A stretch of DNA of 64,000 nucleotides from Anaerolineae bacterium (GTDB lineage: Bacteria > Chloroflexota > Anaerolineae > Aggregatilineales > Phototrophicaceae): the NCBI GenBank assembly GCA_022822545.1, contig JAJEBE010000040.1:124001-188000 (forward strand), given 5' to 3'. The notes below the pieces were generated by a model. That model made no database searches, was not told the origin of the DNA, and saw nothing but the letters and a program-made list of their open reading frames with translations. Position numbers and translations under genes: made by a program. Of the stretch, positions 54,113-60,471 are shown piece after piece. Position 1 is the stretch's first letter; the number at the start of each line of letters is the position of its first letter.

Positions 54113-54193
54113 GAGTCCTACCTTCTCCATACATAGAATTTGTACAGACATTGTGGTATCTTTAGGTCGAGTGTCAAGGGAGAGGATGCTCTG

Positions 54194-54415
54194 ATGGATC
54201 CCATTGAACGCAAGACTCCGACTAAGGCGATGGAAGAGAGCAGCGAGTTCATCACGGCGATAGATGACGACGAGCCGACAGAAGAAGAATTCCGGGCAAG
54301 CATTCGGCGCAGCATGCGGCAAGCGCTAGCGGGTGAAACGCGCCCAGCAGACGAAGCCCTGGAAGAGATTCGTCGAGAGCTAGCAGGTTATGCCGACGCG
54401 CGTCAGGACCACTGA
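54194..54415 (+). CDS. Putative antitoxin of a type II toxin-antitoxin pair
   Basis: The 73-residue acidic protein starts at the ATG at 54194, with GAGAGGATG just upstream. Its C-terminal part (EEEFRASIRRSMRQALAGE, ALEEIRRELAGYA) is helical and charged, as expected of a toxin-binding antitoxin. The RelE/ParE-like toxin frame starts within its last codons (26-base overlap), the usual antitoxin-toxin order. No DNA-binding family is recognised. Confidence 0.65.
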   Translation: MDPIERKTPTKAMEESSEFITAIDDDEPTEEEFRASIRRSMRQALAGETRPADEALEEIRRELAGYADARQDH

Positions 54416-54730
54416 AGACTTTGATAAGCAAGTGGCGAGAATCGCTCGCAAATTCCCAGCAGTACTCGACGAAGTTGCCACATTCATTTCGCGGTTGAAA
54501 AGCGCTGATATTACACAACTTCCGGGCCGTAGGGTTCGCCGTATAGGTTATACCGTGTACAAAGAAGACTGCCAAATCCATCCGCACGTCGGGGAAAACG
54601 GGGCGGATTCCGCGTCTATTATTGGGTCCCGGGTCAAGATCACCTTGTGCTTGTTGCCATTTGTTCCAAGACGGAGCAAGAAGGTATTGTCGAATCTGAA
54701 TTGCGCCACATGATCAAAGATATTGATTAG
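54390..54730 (+). pseudogene. RelE/ParE-family toxin, frameshifted
   Basis: The first ~57 codons (MPTRVRTTEDFDKQVARIAR ... RRIGYTVYK) match the start of a RelE/ParE toxin. The family ending appears in a different frame: RLPNPSARRGKRGGFRVYYW, then LVLVAICSKTEQEGIVESEL, stopping at 54728-54730. The switch is near 54560 at TACAAAGAAGACTGCC, where one base seems to be missing. In the original frame the protein continues as unrelated sequence to 54713. So the toxin is probably inactivated while the antitoxin remains intact. A sequencing error at this point is the alternative. Confidence 0.72.
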
Positions 54731-54752: not shown

Positions 54753-56051
54753 TCATCGCCCCCGCCGACCATGGCAGCGCTTGAACTTCTTCCCGCTGCC
54801 ACAGGGGCAGAGATCGTTGCGCCCGGCCTGCGCGAAAGCCCGCTCCAGCTCGGCATCGTAACGCGCCATCTCCAGCATCACATTCGCCGGCGGACGCCGC
54901 CCCGCTAACTCAGCCGCCATGAAATTCATCGTCGGCCGCACATGGTTGAAAAAGGCGCGATATCCGGCGCAGAGGTAATTCAAGCCGGGCTCGCCGTCCG
55001 GCGTCTCGATGAAGCGGTTCTTGGGGCAGCCGCCATTGCAGACGAACTTGACCTCGCAATCCAGGCAATACTGCGGCAGCGTATCGCGCTTGTCTTGGCC
55101 GAACTTGATCTGCCCGTCCATGACCACAATCTCGCTCAAGGGCACATCCATGATATTGCCCAGCTTGTAATCCGGCTCGACATAATGATCGCAGGAGAAG
55201 ACATCGCCGTTGTGCTCCATCGCCAGCGCCAAACCGCAGGTCTCGTCAAAGATGCAGAGCCCGGGCGGCGCGCCGGTCCAGGCCGCCAGCGCGATATCGA
55301 AGATCTGCACGAAGACTTTACCGACATCTCGCCGCACCCACTCCTCGTACATGTCAATGAGGAATTGCCCATAACCCGCCGCTGTGATCGAGCGGTCCGT
55401 GACCTGATCCCCCTCCTGATAACCCGTGTCGTTGTCGCGCTCCACGATGGGGATGAACTGCATGAAGGCCGTGCCGACCTCATCACGCAAGAATCTGTAA
55501 ACGCGCGCGCCTTGCCCTTCGTTGGCGGCGTGCACGGTGGTCAGGATGTTGTATTCGGCGTTGTGCTTCTGCAAGAGGCGGATGCCCGCCATAACCTTGT
55601 GAAAGGTCGGGTTGCCGCCTTTGTCGACGCGGTAGTAATCATGCATATCAGCCGGCCCGTCCAGGCTGACGCCCAGCAGGAAATCGTTGGCGGCGAAGAA
55701 TTCGCACCAGTCGTCATCCAGCGTCACGGCGTTGGTTTGCAAGGCGTTGGTGATGCGCATGCCCGGCCGCTTGTGCTTCTGCTGATAGCGAACCGCTTGG
55801 CGGAAGAAATCCAAACCCATCAGCGTCGGTTCGCCGCCCTGCCAGGCGAAGTTGATGTCATTCACCTGCTGCGCCTCAATGTACTGGCGGATGTACTCCT
55901 CGAGCAGATTGTCCGACATGCGGAACTTGCTGCCCGGATACAGCGCTTCTTTGGAGAGGAAATAGCAATACTTGCAATCGAGGTTGCAGATGGCGCCTCG
56001 CGGCTTCGTCATCAGGTGGAAGGCGGTGGGTTGTTGCGTGGTCGCTTGCAT
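54753..56051 (-). CDS. Anaerobic sulfatase-maturase-type radical SAM enzyme with SEC-C tail
   Basis: The 432-residue protein begins its radical-SAM core with CNLDCKYCYF (Cys22, Cys26, Cys29), then FAWQGGEPTLMGLDFF and GVSLDGPADMHDYYR, as in anaerobic sulfatase-maturating enzymes. A SPASM region with auxiliary Fe-S cysteines follows (CGLALAMEHNGDVFSCDHYV, YCLDCEVKFVCNGGCPKNRF). It would convert a Cys or Ser of a sulfatase to formylglycine. The last ~22 residues form a SEC-C zinc motif (GRNDLCPCGSGKKFKRCHG), an uncommon appendage here. No sulfatase gene is nearby. The TATACT at 56059-56064 is seven bases before the ATG. Confidence 0.9.
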   Translation of the reverse strand: MQATTQQPTAFHLMTKPRGAICNLDCKYCYFLSKEALYPGSKFRMSDNLLEEYIRQYIEAQQVNDINFAWQGGEPTLMGLDFFRQAVRYQQKHKRPGMRITNALQTNAVTLDDDWCEFFAANDFLLGVSLDGPADMHDYYRVDKGGNPTFHKVMAGIRLLQKHNAEYNILTTVHAANEGQGARVYRFLRDEVGTAFMQFIPIVERDNDTGYQEGDQVTDRSITAAGYGQFLIDMYEEWVRRDVGKVFVQIFDIALAAWTGAPPGLCIFDETCGLALAMEHNGDVFSCDHYVEPDYKLGNIMDVPLSEIVVMDGQIKFGQDKRDTLPQYCLDCEVKFVCNGGCPKNRFIETPDGEPGLNYLCAGYRAFFNHVRPTMNFMAAELAGRRPPANVMLEMARYDAELERAFAQAGRNDLCPCGSGKKFKRCHGRRGR

Positions 56052-56087: not shown

Positions 56088-56131
56088 GGATTCACCACAG
56101 AGACACAGAGAGCACAGAGAGCACAGAGATA
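56088..56131. repeat. CACAGAG-type dispersed repeat, left copy
   Basis: GGATTCACCACAGAGACACAG begins a run of AGAGCACAG units ending in AGATA. Its reverse complement occurs at 57263-57288, so the pair forms an inverted repeat around the first HsdR_N-like gene. Confidence 0.7.
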
Positions 56132-56199: not shown

Positions 56200-57255
56200 A
56201 TGAGCCTGTTTGATGCCTTGAGCAAGATTTCGGAACAAATTCAAAGTCAGCGTCACCTGATGAGAAATGAAGAAGCGACCCTACAGGTCTCTATCCGACC
56301 TTTCATTGAAGCTCTAGGTTACAATACCCGCAATTTAGCTGAAGTTGCGCCACAATTTACCGCCGATCCTCGCCCAAGCGGGACTGACCGCGTCGATTAT
56401 GCGATTCTACGTGATAGTAATCCTGTTATCTTGATTGAAGCCAAACCGGCCAATACGAACCTTACGGAAAACAATTGGAAACAACTCCATGACTACTTTA
56501 ATGCGGAAGAAGTTCGCTTTGGTATTCTGACGAACGGTATTGAGTACCGATTCTATACCGACCTCAACAAACGCAACATCATGGACAAGGATCCATTTTT
56601 AACCATCGACATGCTAATACTCGATGAACAGTTGGTGGAGGAACTCGCACCGTTTACACGTAAGGGCTTCAATTCCGAGCGGATTATTGCCAGCGCACGA
56701 AAGTTGGCGGTTGTCCGCTTGCTTGAAGATGAGTACCGACAACCAACTACGGAGTTTGCTGGATATTTTGCCAGACAAGTCTATCCGGGGCGCATAACGC
56801 AATCGGTTATTGAAGAATTTATGCCCGTCTTCAGACAAGCATGGAGGCAGTTTGTAAATCAGCAGATTCTCAGTCATCCGCAACTTGTCGTTCAAACCGA
56901 GAAAGCTATTGTAGAACGTAAAACTCAACTTATCGCCGAAGAGATGCCGGCAACATTCACTACCGAACTTAGCAGGGAAATCCCTGTATACGCTGAATGG
57001 CGGGGTCGCTCATTTGAAGCAACGCTAGTATTCGACGAATCTCATCATCGTAGATCCCGAGTAACGTTTAATGGGTTGACCGCAACGCCTTCCAAAACTG
57101 CATTGAAAGCAACTCGCTCTGTTGTGCCCGATTTTAAGGCAATAAATGGATGGGACTTTTGGAAACTTCGCGATCCTAATGGGAATCAAGAACGGTCTAT
57201 AAGTGATTTGCGAAATGACGATGCTTTGGTGCGCCGACTGCAAGGCAAAACCTAG
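56200..57255 (+). CDS. HsdR_N-like nuclease-fold protein with RAMA/DUF4357-like C-terminus (copy 1)
   Basis: The 351-residue protein has an N-terminal type I restriction HsdR_N-like domain: MRNEEATLQVSIRPFIEALGY, RVDYAILRDSNPVILIEAKP with the PD-(D/E)xK residues Asp66, Glu80 and Lys82, and FGILTNGIEYRFYTDL. The C-terminal ~90 residues (VYAEWRGRSFEATLVF, VTFNGLTATPSKTAL, NGWDFWKLRDPNG) match the RAMA/DUF4357 pattern found in modification-linked proteins. No helicase domain is present, so it is not a full HsdR. The DNA is AT-richer than its surroundings. A paralogue follows, and dispersed repeats flank both. Confidence 0.8.
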   Translation: MSLFDALSKISEQIQSQRHLMRNEEATLQVSIRPFIEALGYNTRNLAEVAPQFTADPRPSGTDRVDYAILRDSNPVILIEAKPANTNLTENNWKQLHDYFNAEEVRFGILTNGIEYRFYTDLNKRNIMDKDPFLTIDMLILDEQLVEELAPFTRKGFNSERIIASARKLAVVRLLEDEYRQPTTEFAGYFARQVYPGRITQSVIEEFMPVFRQAWRQFVNQQILSHPQLVVQTEKAIVERKTQLIAEEMPATFTTELSREIPVYAEWRGRSFEATLVFDESHHRRSRVTFNGLTATPSKTALKATRSVVPDFKAINGWDFWKLRDPNGNQERSISDLRNDDALVRRLQGKT

Positions 57256-57262
57256 CCAGTCT

Positions 57263-57288
57263 TATCTCTGTGCCTCTGTGGTGAATCC
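57263..57288. repeat. CTCTGTG-type dispersed repeat, middle copy
   Basis: TATCTCTGTGCCTCTGTGG continuing to TGAATCC is the inverse of the repeat at 56088 and in direct orientation with 58453-58488. The following CCCCCTGCCGTAACTTCC resembles the last codons of rluD. Confidence 0.7.
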
Positions 57289-57390
57289 CCCTGCCGTAAC
57301 TTCCCCAAGCGCTCGCCCGAGACGGAAACCAGCTCGACCCGAACATGCTATACTTGCACAATCAATGACGCAGCACTTACGAGGCGTGAT

Positions 57391-58404
57391 ATGAATTTGT
57401 ACGACGATTTAAGCAAGATTTCAAAACGGGTGAAAAGTCAACTCCAACAAATGAAGAATAACGAGGCGGCTACAATAAACGTCTCCGTCCAGCCAGTCAT
57501 CCGCGCCTTAGGTTACGACATGGAAAACCTCAGCGAGGTGTATCCCGAATACCCGATACTCAATATGGACGCGGTCGATTACGCCATCATGCGCGATGGA
57601 AAGCCGAAAATATTTATTGAAGCAAAAAACGCCAATCTCGCGCTTGATAAACACTGGAAACAACTATTTCAGTATTTTAATGCTGACGATGTGATCGTTG
57701 GTATTTTGACGAATGGCATCGAGTATCGCTTCTACACTGACCTCAAGAAAAGCAATATCATGGACAAAGAGCCGTTCATGACGATTGATATGCTGAATCT
57801 CGATAAGCGGCTGGTAAAAGAACTGGAAGGTTTTGCTAAGTCCAGCTTTGATCCTGAGCGAATAATTGCAGGCGCGCAAAGACGAGTGTTGATGCAATTA
57901 TTGCGACAAGAAATGGAACGACCCTCTGATGAATTTGTCCGGCACTTTGCCAGACTGGTGCATTCGGGGCGGCTGCCTAATTCGGATATTCAGCGATTTG
58001 CGCAGTTAGTGAAAGAGGCGTGGCTCGAATTAATGGAGCAGAAGATTGCGGATCGAATGCAGCCAGAGCCAGATAAAGAGGACAGCGACAATGGTGCGGG
58101 ACCAGTATTATCTGGCACGGAAGTTCCAGTATTTGGGACGTACAAAGGACGGCGATTTAAAGCGACGCTAATGATTGACGATAGTATGCGGTTGCAGAGG
58201 GAAGACAATATGTTGTTCGATGGTAAACCCATGAATCATGCCGTCGCTGCTTTTGAGGCGGTGAAGAAAGTCGACCCATTGATGAAAAAGTGGCCTACGG
58301 GCTGGATATTCTGGCGTTTCATCGACTCCGATACCGGTGAAGAACGACCAATTAAAGAAATCTTTGAAGAAGTATGGACTCGTAATTCAAGCAACGGTTA
58401 TTAG
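57391..58404 (+). CDS. HsdR_N-like nuclease-fold protein with RAMA/DUF4357-like C-terminus (copy 2)
   Basis: The 337-residue protein is a clear tandem paralogue of the preceding gene. Shared segments include the MNLYDDLSKISKRVKSQ start, AVDYAIMRDGKPKIFIEAKN (Asp63, Glu77, Lys79), VGILTNGIEYRFYTDLKK and TIDMLNLDKRLVKELEGF. The C-terminal RAMA-like part has VFGTYKGRRFKATLMIDD, NHAVAAFEAV and GWIFWRFIDSDTG. A nine-codon frame (57365-57394) precedes it, its stop overlapping the start codon (ATGA), and a TATACT lies at 57349. Candidate nuclease and modified-DNA recognition domains in one protein suggest restriction-type defence. Confidence 0.8.
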   Translation: MNLYDDLSKISKRVKSQLQQMKNNEAATINVSVQPVIRALGYDMENLSEVYPEYPILNMDAVDYAIMRDGKPKIFIEAKNANLALDKHWKQLFQYFNADDVIVGILTNGIEYRFYTDLKKSNIMDKEPFMTIDMLNLDKRLVKELEGFAKSSFDPERIIAGAQRRVLMQLLRQEMERPSDEFVRHFARLVHSGRLPNSDIQRFAQLVKEAWLELMEQKIADRMQPEPDKEDSDNGAGPVLSGTEVPVFGTYKGRRFKATLMIDDSMRLQREDNMLFDGKPMNHAVAAFEAVKKVDPLMKKWPTGWIFWRFIDSDTGEERPIKEIFEEVWTRNSSNGY

Positions 58405-58452
58405 GCTGCCAGATCGAGAGATTCCTTAAATGAGCGCAACACAACGTACAGA

Positions 58453-58507
58453 ATCTCTGTGCCCTCTGTGCCTCTGTGGTTAATCCCCTACCGCAACTTC
58501 TCCATCA
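58453..58507. repeat. CTCTGTG-type repeat with rluD-end relic
   Basis: ATCTCTGTGCCCTCTGTGCC runs on to GGTTAATCCCC. It is followed by CCCCTACCGCAACTTCTCC (from 58485), the complement of a sequence encoding LMEKLR and a stop, nearly identical to the true rluD terminus at 58887-58909. Confidence 0.7.
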
Positions 58508-58599
58508 ACGCCCGCAGCGAAACAATTGTTGACAGCACTCGCCTTTTGCACGATACTCCATGTTAAGATTCTGCAAACATCACGCATCAAGGAACTGGC

Positions 58600-58860
58600 A
58601 TGACAGCGCGAACTGAATCGGAAGAGCGTCTTTTGACCGAGACTGTGAACCGGCATGCGCAACAAATCGCGAGACTGGAAGCGAGCCAAGAGCATGCGGC
58701 CACCAAGGCTGATGTGGCGATGGTGCAAACCGACATTGAGAGACTCCGCGCTGATATGGAAAAGCTGAAATCGGACTTGACTTGGCGCATCGTCATCGCC
58801 ATGAGCATTATGACGGCCATTTTCGCCGCAATCGTAAGGCTGACGCCGCCAGCCGCGTAG
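58600..58860 (+). CDS. Small coiled-coil protein with C-terminal membrane anchor
   Basis: The 86-residue protein has a helical, charged N-terminal two-thirds with heptads (VNRHAQQIARLEASQEHA and VQTDIERLRADMEKLKSDL) and one C-terminal membrane segment (RIVIAMSIMTAIFAAIVRLT). This tail-anchored layout is frequent in small Chloroflexota and cyanobacterial proteins of unknown function, and superficially resembles DUF1640. It lies between the HsdR_N/RAMA pair and rluD. Confidence 0.7.
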   Translation: MTARTESEERLLTETVNRHAQQIARLEASQEHAATKADVAMVQTDIERLRADMEKLKSDLTWRIVIAMSIMTAIFAAIVRLTPPAA

Positions 58861-58889
58861 CCCCCTCTGTAGTCCAAACCAAAAACCCC

Positions 58890-59813
58890 CTACCGCAGCT
58901 TCTCCATCACACTCCTCAAGCCCACCGGCAACTCGCTCACAAAACTCATCCGCTCCCCGCTGACCGGATGCTCAAAAGCCAGTTCATGCGCGTGCAAGAA
59001 CTGCCGCTTCATCTTCACCCGCTGCTTCCTGCGCCCATAGACCGTATCCCCCAGCACCGGACAACCGATGAAGGCCAGGTGCGCGCGAATCTGATGCGTC
59101 CGCCCGGTCAACAGCTTCAACTTCACCAGCGCCCGGTCGCCTTGAAAATCGTCATCCAGCACCTCGAATTCGGTCTGCGCCGGCTTGCCATCCCGCCGGA
59201 CCGCCATGCGTTTGCGCTGTCGCGGATCGCGGGCGATCGGCGCGTCGATGAGGCCCGTATTTGACGCCGGCCGCTTCTCCAGCAGCGCCAGGTAGACCTT
59301 GTCCACCGTCCGCGCCTGAAACTGCCCCATCAGCGCCAGCAGGGTCGCTTTGTCCCGCGCAATCACAAGCAAGCCGCTCGTGCCCCGGTCGAGCCGATGG
59401 ACGATGCCGAGCCGGTCCCCCGTCTCCGGATCGTCCATCATATCCGCCAGTTCCGGGTAGCGCGCCAGCAAGGCGTTGACCAGCGTGCCGCTTTCGTTGC
59501 CCGGTCCCGGATGCACCACCATGCCGGCCGCTTTGTCGATGACAGCGAGATGCTTGTCCTCGTACACAATGTCAAGCGGGATGGCCTCCGGCTCAATCGT
59601 GGCATTCTCCCGCGGCGGGATGCAAACGCTCACCGTTTCGCCGCCTTTGAAGCGATAGCCGCTCTTCTGGACGACGCCGTCAACGAGCACATGCCCATCG
59701 CGGATTAGCGCCTGCGCCTGCGTCCGCGAATAGCCGGGCAGATGCGCCAGCAGGAACTTGTCCAGCCGCTGCTGGGGTTTATTTGCGCTGAGGGTTAAGG
59801 ATTGCTCTGGCAC
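58890..59813 (-). CDS. rluD: RluD-type 23S rRNA pseudouridine synthase
   Basis: The 307-residue protein has an S4-like RNA-binding domain at the N-terminus (QRLDKFLLAHLPGYSRTQAQALI, VLVDGVVQKSGYRF) and the RluA/RluD catalytic domain with HRLDRGTSGLLVIARD, whose Asp is the nucleophile, then KVYLALLEK and LLTGRTHQIRAHLAFIGCPVLGD. It forms pseudouridines in 23S rRNA helix 69 or related sites. The start is a GTG overlapping the end of the HNH gene by 19 bases. Copies of its last codons occur at 58485 and, weaker, at 57283. Confidence 0.93.
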   Translation of the reverse strand: MPEQSLTLSANKPQQRLDKFLLAHLPGYSRTQAQALIRDGHVLVDGVVQKSGYRFKGGETVSVCIPPRENATIEPEAIPLDIVYEDKHLAVIDKAAGMVVHPGPGNESGTLVNALLARYPELADMMDDPETGDRLGIVHRLDRGTSGLLVIARDKATLLALMGQFQARTVDKVYLALLEKRPASNTGLIDAPIARDPRQRKRMAVRRDGKPAQTEFEVLDDDFQGDRALVKLKLLTGRTHQIRAHLAFIGCPVLGDTVYGRRKQRVKMKRQFLHAHELAFEHPVSGERMSFVSELPVGLRSVMEKLR

Positions 59814-60217
59814 GGGTAATTGTCCAGCAGCCTTTCGCCGTAGCGCTGCTCGACGCGCGGCGCTTCGTTCATTCGCGGCACAGCGACCGTCGCCCGTCCT
59901 TCTGGACTAAGCCCGACAAGCGACGCATCCGGATTGACTTGAAAATGCTCATGCCAGTTCTGCTGCCGTGGGTTAAAGAGCTTGGTCGCCTCGTCAGTGA
60001 GAGGATCAATCGCGGCGATTTCAGAACCTTTGTAGCGATTGCACTCGGCGCAAGATAGGCAAAGATTGTCGATTAAATCTTCACCGCCATGTTTAATTGG
60101 GATAATGTGATCGATTTGGAATGCGATAGGTTCTCTGCCATCTCCAACACGGCAGTATTCACAGCATCTGCCTGCCCGTTCAAATACGTATCGCCGTTGT
60201 TGTGCAGAGATTGTCAC
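59795..60217 (-). CDS. HNH endonuclease
   Basis: The 140-residue protein starts at a GTG. The HNH module is in the first ~75 residues: AGRCCEYCRVGDGREPIAFQIDHIIPIKHGG and LIDNLCLSCAECNRYKGSEIAAIDP, with zinc-binding Cys pairs and the catalytic His in IDHIIP. The C-terminal part has FNPRQQNWHEHFQV, as in the free-standing HNH family of Cyanobacteria and Chloroflexota. It overlaps the small upstream gene by four bases, forming a conserved two-gene unit. Confidence 0.9.
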   Translation of the reverse strand: MTISAQQRRYVFERAGRCCEYCRVGDGREPIAFQIDHIIPIKHGGEDLIDNLCLSCAECNRYKGSEIAAIDPLTDEATKLFNPRQQNWHEHFQVNPDASLVGLSPEGRATVAVPRMNEAPRVEQRYGERLLDNYPCQSNP

Positions 60218-60471
60218 GCTTCCAAGCCCCGCATCCGAAGCTCGGTTCTGATTTTCAGTGTGCTTATCATGCGATTGGCGCGCATGTAATCATCGAGCTC
60301 ATGCCGCTGTTCACAGGTCAGTTCAGACTCCCGGTTGAGGTACAGCAGATGGCTCACGCGCTCTTGCAGATCCTCCGGCAGCTTATAGGCGAGCAACTCT
60401 TCATCCGTCGGGTCTTCCGCTAAAAAGTCGGTGATGACGGCAAAAACATCGCGTACTTGCGCTTCTTTCAT
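60214..60471 (-). CDS. Small partner protein of the HNH endonuclease
   Basis: The 85-residue protein begins MKEAQVRDVFAVITDFLAE and ends in an alpha-helical segment (LQERVSHLLYLNRESELTCEQRHELDDYMRANRMISTL) typical of the short proteins encoded just before HNH nucleases of this type. It overlaps that gene by four bases. It may be an inhibitor or specificity partner; this is inferred from gene pairing only. Confidence 0.75.
   Translation of the reverse strand: MKEAQVRDVFAVITDFLAEDPTDEELLAYKLPEDLQERVSHLLYLNRESELTCEQRHELDDYMRANRMISTLKIRTELRMRGLEA

Follow-up and report, generated by a model that had tools for sequence, protein, structure and literature searches.

What brings the last codons of a gene back a second time behind it, among genes of candidate nucleases? 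The question is raised by the rluD locus of an Anaerolineae bacterium (GenBank assembly GCA_022822545.1). The stretch analysed, below called the window, consists of 64,000 nucleotides of contig JAJEBE010000040.1 (positions 124,001 to 188,000), and all coordinates given without a contig or locus name refer to it. An earlier note on this DNA had suggested that defence genes were inserted repeatedly at the rluD terminus and that the terminus was regenerated each time. This suggestion is supported by the genus-wide occurrence of rluD tail copies and by the turnover of the genes accompanying them. It is fairly probable that single-gene cassettes have been joined serially to the rluD 3' end by homologous recombination through the shared gene tail, with no dedicated integrase.

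Copies of the rluD tail and the turnover of cargo

The target gene, encoding an rluD-like pseudouridine synthase, is an open reading frame (ORF) at 58890-59813 on the minus strand (Pfam PF00849, PseudoU_synth_2, E 2e-35, and S4). It ends in VMEKLR-stop, and its final 33 nucleotides are 58890-58922. Downstream, in the sense of rluD, there follow cc86 (an ORF at 58600-58860, plus strand, convergent with rluD, encoding an 86-aa coiled-coil and transmembrane protein), a tail copy (58488-58520, minus strand), the HsdR_N-type nuclease gene 2 (57391-58404, plus strand), a doubtful copy at 57285, the HsdR_N-type nuclease gene 1 (56200-57255, plus strand) and the divergent rSAM gene (54753-56051, minus strand). 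Both cc86 and nuclease gene 2 are cassette cargo. The rSAM gene, which adjoins nuclease gene 1 and encodes a protein with Radical SAM, SPASM and SEC-C matches in Pfam, is the conserved far border of the array; in relatives it is 85-96% identical and lies beside the array as well.

The strong tail copy (31 bits by the tail matrix described below, followed by GGGATTAACCACAGAG in the rluD sense) is real and locus-specific in its genome. As the earlier note had observed, the terminal codons of rluD are repeated almost exactly at 58485, with one mismatch in 23 nucleotides (58485-58507) and no match in 100 shuffles. The best alignment of this copy, 29 nucleotides with two mismatches, is with the rluD end of a relative and was equalled in none of 200 shuffles. 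With at most three mismatches, a 19-mer from the tail has four matches in the whole genome, three of them within 1.6 kb at the rluD locus (the reversed pattern, used as a control, has six). The weaker copy that the same note placed at 57283 did not hold up: its alignment, starting at 57285, is reached by 32 of 200 shuffles and is not separable from chance. It was dropped as a tail copy for that reason. The segment (57285-57310, minus strand, three mismatches in 19, alone not significant) occupies the position where a tail copy would be expected, and may be a decayed second distal copy.

The rluD gene was located in 57 of the 61 genomes searched, that of the window included. The comparison covered 31 loci of the same genus, 30 from relatives and the window's own (genomes are designated G000 etc.). 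All come from draft metagenome-assembled genomes (MAGs) of Chloroflexota/Anaerolineae; the closest contigs are Chloroflexi/Anaerolineae MAGs according to the record titles, and from the isolate names we take the genus genomes to be of sponge origin. One to three HsdR_N genes lie behind rluD in 28 loci, and the array reaches rSAM wherever the contig extends that far. The exceptions are G013, where the contig stops 171 nucleotides past rluD, G023, where rluD lies elsewhere and two HsdR_N genes remain beside rSAM, and the distant G033 with rSAM on another contig. HsdR_N matches in the genus number 45 in 30 of 34 genomes, and 44 of them adjoin rluD, rSAM or both.

A matrix was made of the last 33 nucleotides of rluD across the genus, and copies above 12 bits were counted; the background maximum is about 10 bits, both in shuffles and in real DNA beyond rSAM. 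Twenty copies were found in 16 of the 30 loci, all in the orientation of rluD. They score 13-53 bits (16 of the 20 above 20 bits) and are from about 27 to about 70 nucleotides long. Since the cargo also changes on the species tree, the comparison proposed by the earlier note, a search among relatives for cargo that varies and is bordered by repeated terminal codons, has turned out in its favour. Some variants of the tail are lineage-specific: the ADVMGKLR type occurs in G016, and the ADLMKKLR type in G032 and G017. In G028 the distal remnant retains the clade-type GGGAAGTTGCGG, whereas the proximal end reads GCGAAGTTGCGCTGA and has cc86 behind it. When zero or one mismatch is allowed, the tail pattern in 34 genomes lies on contigs that carry rluD; the single exception is in G027, a genome in which no rluD was found. 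No viral contig contained the pattern.

On a species tree made from rluD (with the end removed) and rSAM, nine changes are needed for cc86, four for X (a 70-aa coiled-coil gene) and eight for the number of HsdR_N genes. The cc86 gene stands behind rluD in nine genomes of the genus, that of the window among them, and is second in the row in one. The order is cc86-HsdR_N-HsdR_N in G000, G006 and G024, X-cc86-HsdR_N in G014, HsdR_N-X-HsdR_N in G005, and X-HsdR_N in G010 and G018. Judging by their N-terminal parts, adjacent nucleases are not sisters: neighbours in one genome are 39-61% identical (73-74% for one pair each in G017, G022 and G032), and the best relative in another genome is 57-99% identical. 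Even between sister species with core genes 89-92% identical, the best HsdR_N match reaches just 46-54% in five of the seven comparable pairs; in the remaining two, G032-G022 and G017-G032, the nucleases are 93-96% identical. A direct vector was not found: the HsdR_N relatives from plasmids (57 records) and from phages (18) all have less than 60% identity, and in no case is 80% of the query covered.

Other target genes

The rluD gene is just one of several target genes. The clearest case is hisD, the second site of accretion, with a regenerated tail (L297; G000 contig C27, 92327-93613 and downstream). Here a copy of the hisD tail flanks a DUF5615/DUF433 toxin-antitoxin cassette in 10 of 30 loci. 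Comparison of the loci demonstrates what is, by its sequence, a cassette that has moved horizontally and whose sites are empty in some genomes and occupied in others. Between G000 and G032 the cassette is 92.9% identical over 751 nucleotides, compared with 78.9% for hisD, 79.0% for core genes and 43% (unrelated) for the DNA beyond the copy; with G014 the cassette identity is 94.5% (versus 83.8% and 51.5%). Four cassette carriers have identical, cassette-derived last codons of hisD, AAGTAG followed by gcaaaa. In G017 no cassette lies directly behind hisD, and the native end of the gene, together with its flank, is matched by the distal copy and flank of G032. For G014, G005 and G024, too, the distal flanks have matches in the flanks of relatives. 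In G013 and G020 (72 of 72 positions) the two hisD copies within one genome share private variants, which we read as gene conversion. A literature search on DUF433 together with DUF5615 found nothing.

A copy of the rSAM tail is present in 7 of 26 genus loci, and there is none in the genome of the window. The cargo was read in five of the seven (L075, L086, L087, L088 and L089; the other two loci are those of G010 and G024). In each of the five, rSAM is followed by an HNH endonuclease gene, a gene for a partner of 134-148 aa, and a copy of the rSAM tail of 61-147 nucleotides.

A more general scan for copies of gene tails covered 1.264 Mb from the genome of the window and 400 kb from G014, with 1,119 mechanically called genes; copies were sought within 4 kb. 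Ten intergenic tail copies were found, compared with 0, 1 and 1 for three internal gene segments and 2 for gene heads. The window's genome contributed nine tails (0, 1, 1 internal segments and 1 head), and G014 one (0, 0, 0 and 1). The cargo includes the DUF5615 and DUF433 genes behind hisD, a Uma2 nuclease, a cc86-like coiled coil, a protein matching deoxyribosyltransferase weakly and below the cut-off and, behind an isopropylmalate/isocitrate dehydrogenase gene, a DUF2281/Phd-like gene. At the latter site, 30 loci were compared: G000 has an 86-nucleotide tail copy and G013 one of 39 nucleotides (score 32.1), with no other above 11. The cargo of the match on C23 is not convincing, and that on C56 is an ABC-type gene rather than a defence gene. 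The matches C27:27086 and C27:32125 are the two sides of a single event, in which two duplicated tails enclose three genes. At C27:28171-32125 of G000 (L294), serine hydrolase-like, AraC-like and SDR-like genes, as recognised by eye, lie between two convergent genes, each with a duplicated end.

The nucleases and other features of the locus

The nucleases of the array are 337-351 aa long, and HSDR_N is their only Pfam match (7e-12 for gene 2 and 1.7e-12 for gene 1 of the window). Among 39 members of the family Pfam found HSDR_N in all, RAMA in two and HEPN_Swt1 in one; going by length, the last is taken to be the 503-aa protein of G002. This HsdR_N protein is encoded at the rluD site (L079:980-2491). 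Residues D63, E77 and K79 are invariant, in agreement with the catalytic pattern of PD-(D/E)XK nucleases. In the structural model of gene 2 (predicted local distance difference test score 88.5), residues 3-164 have the same fold, at Z about 12, as the nuclease domains of the Type IIG enzyme DrdV (Z 12.3) and of HsdR (Z 11.7). Residues 240-332, with a RAMA/SAND-like fold, match the RAMA domain of MPND (Z 7.0) and the C-terminal domain of CcrM (Z 6.3), where a Z of about 7 may reflect a common arrangement only. The C-terminal part is much more variable than the N-terminal one (median identity 18% vs 45%). The model leaves no room for a helicase/translocase motor such as a Type I HsdR has, and no methylase or specificity gene (HsdM/HsdS) was recognised among the ORFs of the array. 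From their fold, the nucleases are predicted to be modification-dependent restriction enzymes, a likely role, with a PD-(D/E)XK domain and a candidate RAMA-like reader. When the earlier note placed HsdR_N and RAMA genes beside the repeats, it was right about HsdR_N, with gene 1 (56200-57255) lying outside the segment it dealt with; the RAMA-like part is backed by structure, and by Pfam in only the two proteins mentioned. The accessible part of PMC11037411 mentions GIY-YIG-RAMA and RAMA-Mrr fusions and does not name stand-alone HsdR_N-RAMA nucleases; it also states that attempts to confirm that the RAMA domain of MPND prefers methylated DNA did not succeed.

The cc86 protein has a weak CCDC90-like match below the Pfam cut-off. 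Ahead of its gene a promoter-like TTGACA-17-GATACT was seen by eye at 58529-58557. That cc86 is tail-flanked everywhere can be ruled out, as unflanked homologues exist elsewhere in the genomes; outside the locus, no direct repeats scoring at least 15 flank cc86 homologues except in G027. There (L240) a cc86-like gene is flanked by a nearly perfect 62-nucleotide direct repeat with a score of 59.5.

The CTCTGTG repeats that the earlier note saw before the tail copies are present as CACAGAGGCACAGAG at 57266-57280 and 58464-58478 (both minus strand), and a copy that it had missed, CACAGAGACACAGAG, lies inverted relative to these at 56096-56110 (plus strand). They are not specific for rluD. With at most one mismatch the repeat occurs at 57 places in the genome, compared with two for the reversed control, and for this reason it was rejected as a specific insertion signal. 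The note had regarded a repeat common throughout the genome without association to rluD as evidence against its proposal; this describes CTCTGTG alone, the copies of the rluD tail being locus-specific. Repeats of the CCACAGAG type are frequent in intergenic DNA, and relatives have CACAAAG and CACGAAG variants. The matches listed by a literature search on the CTCTGTG repeat were all unrelated.

Two gene pairs lie just outside the array. An HNH gene and an 85-aa gene at 59795-60471 (minus strand), immediately upstream of rluD, resemble in layout the HNH pair behind rSAM of relatives. A relE-like/DUF gene pair at 54140-54713 is situated between rSAM and a ridA-like gene, and its copy number varies among relatives.

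How the cassettes may be joined, and what it would mean

The genes for HsdR_N/RAMA-type nucleases and the small coiled-coil gene would be single-gene cassettes with their own promoter-like starts, convergent with rluD. Each newcomer would bring the final rluD codons along in a version of its own, leaving rluD intact and pushing the older terminus outwards as a remnant of 30-70 nucleotides. A 3' end would be favoured because the duplicated tail keeps the gene whole. Comparison of the loci demonstrates that the tail copies keep to one site and one orientation, that the cargo is patchy and changes, and that neighbours are not sisters; for the joining step alone we infer the mechanism, namely homologous recombination in which DNA from related species pairs with the shared tail. 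This is suggested because no 7-mer is common to three or more of the six target tails, no recombinase was seen in the intervals read, no integron integrase exceeds the cut-off, and the copies converge in sequence. Possible routes are single-crossover insertion of a circle containing cassette and tail, or homology-facilitated recombination in which linear DNA is homologous on one side only. The tail repeats would also permit excision and gene conversion.

Several observations weigh against joining by homologous recombination, and some of them would suit an enzyme. The gene tails might serve as attachment sites for a recombinase of the tyrosine or serine type whose gene lies elsewhere, in the way that integrases use the 3' ends of tRNA genes, trmE or icd; the fixed site, fixed orientation and regenerated 3' end agree with such site-specific integration. 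Left borders are constant within families: several rluD cassettes share a border at about -66, as a site-specific enzyme would also produce, and at hisD two different cassette ends join at one constant border, about -84. The distal hisD copy of G032 is native over its whole length, so that a single crossover is insufficient unless followed by gene conversion, and an enzyme acting from elsewhere would suit it too. Weak tyrosine-recombinase-like matches occur in 33 of 34 genomes. On the other hand, the cassettes have only one or two genes, no recombinase was noticed among the ORFs read in the rluD-rSAM intervals (no dedicated scan of every interval was made), the six tails have no 7-mer in common, and neither the viral contigs nor the integron search gave a match. 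In the latter, no TIGR02249 match exceeded the cut-off in the 34 same-genus genomes, nor in 14 control genomes, so this search has no positive control. We regard site-specific integration as unlikely. Further difficulties for the recombination mechanism come from the copies themselves. In only 6 of 15 cases is the rluD tail of the same genome the closest match to the distal copy, ties included, and that of G000 is matched better by 18 of 30 tails than by its own. In G023 the two HsdR_N genes beside rSAM have no rluD tail at all. The cc86 cassettes are less similar than core genes in 35 of 36 pairs and more similar in one; possibly cc86 is anciently present and was lost repeatedly. No circle or excision junction was seen. 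Finally, the first, unfiltered tail scan (score at least 15) gave 8 tails versus 4 and 5 for the internal controls, mostly tandem paralogues; tails stand out only when copies in ORFs of at least 120 aa are set aside, a filter that was introduced once the result of that scan was known.

Tandem duplication of a unit of tail and gene within one genome, with copies that then diverged fast or underwent allelic replacement, would yield the tail-gene-tail-gene order, and neighbours at both hisD and rluD often belong to one family. However, neighbouring HsdR_N genes are non-sisters even though the tails can be near-identical, the cargo between tails (cc86, X, HsdR_N) is non-homologous, and the hisD cassette has moved between distant lineages with unrelated flanks, which makes this origin quite improbable. 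There is very little to be said for the view that the tail copies are mere noise, produced where convergent genes overlap and MAGs are mis-assembled. All genomes are drafts, and chance may account for the weakest copies, namely 57285 and those scoring 13-17 bits, but tail copies recur at one locus from genome to genome, with scores far beyond those of shuffles, and empty and filled sites are collinear.

Serial joining through the tail has partial parallels. The elements e14 and phage 21 are inserted at the 3' end of icd. In SGI1 at trmE, insertion likewise occurs at the 3' end, which is regenerated, with attachment repeats at both borders (PMC8409611). The array resembles all of these, as direct repeats of the target gene end are present at both borders, as in integrase-borne 3'-end islands. 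However, the SGI1 and icd elements have their own integrase and are far larger (43 kb for SGI1), whereas here there are one or two genes, no visible recombinase and several unrelated target genes. The comparison with tRNA ends made in the earlier note is therefore apt for the anatomy, 3'-end insertion with regeneration, and fails for the enzyme, no integrase having been seen in the intervals read. Integron cassettes, too, are single-gene units that join a row at one end, with variable order and content. Here, in contrast, the repeat is a housekeeping gene's end, the units seem to have a promoter each, and no integron integrase exceeds the cut-off. Half of the hotspots of gene transfer have no recognisable mobile elements, according to PMC5635113. 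These hotspots similarly combine conserved flanks and rapid turnover of cargo with no mobility gene seen; here, in contrast, the tail of a core gene is duplicated at each addition and a visible record is left. In homology-facilitated illegitimate recombination, homology on one side likewise traps foreign DNA in the chromosome; it is a laboratory-described process, and the accessible part of PMC3240628 contains no recurrent tail-regenerating insertion at the same genes. Literature searches found nothing on rluD as an integration site of genomic islands, and among the papers listed by searches on toxin-antitoxin genes, direct repeats, cassettes and hotspots none described small tail-regenerating cassettes.

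As every addition would leave a duplicated tail as its scar, the order of additions, the donors and the crossovers may be read from the sequence. Such scars bear on how hotspots without recognisable mobile elements turn over. A second copy of the last codons of a gene behind that gene is also a simple handle for finding small defence and toxin-antitoxin genes. A broader possibility, offered tentatively, is a recombinase-free, genus-wide economy of cassettes. Each family would be tagged by the last 30-150 nucleotides of one housekeeping gene (rluD, hisD, rSAM, the isopropylmalate/isocitrate dehydrogenase gene or a trmB-like gene), and the homologous recombination of the cell would insert, convert and excise the cassettes. 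If this is true, nuclease and toxin-antitoxin genes would circulate between related species with neither transposase nor integrase.

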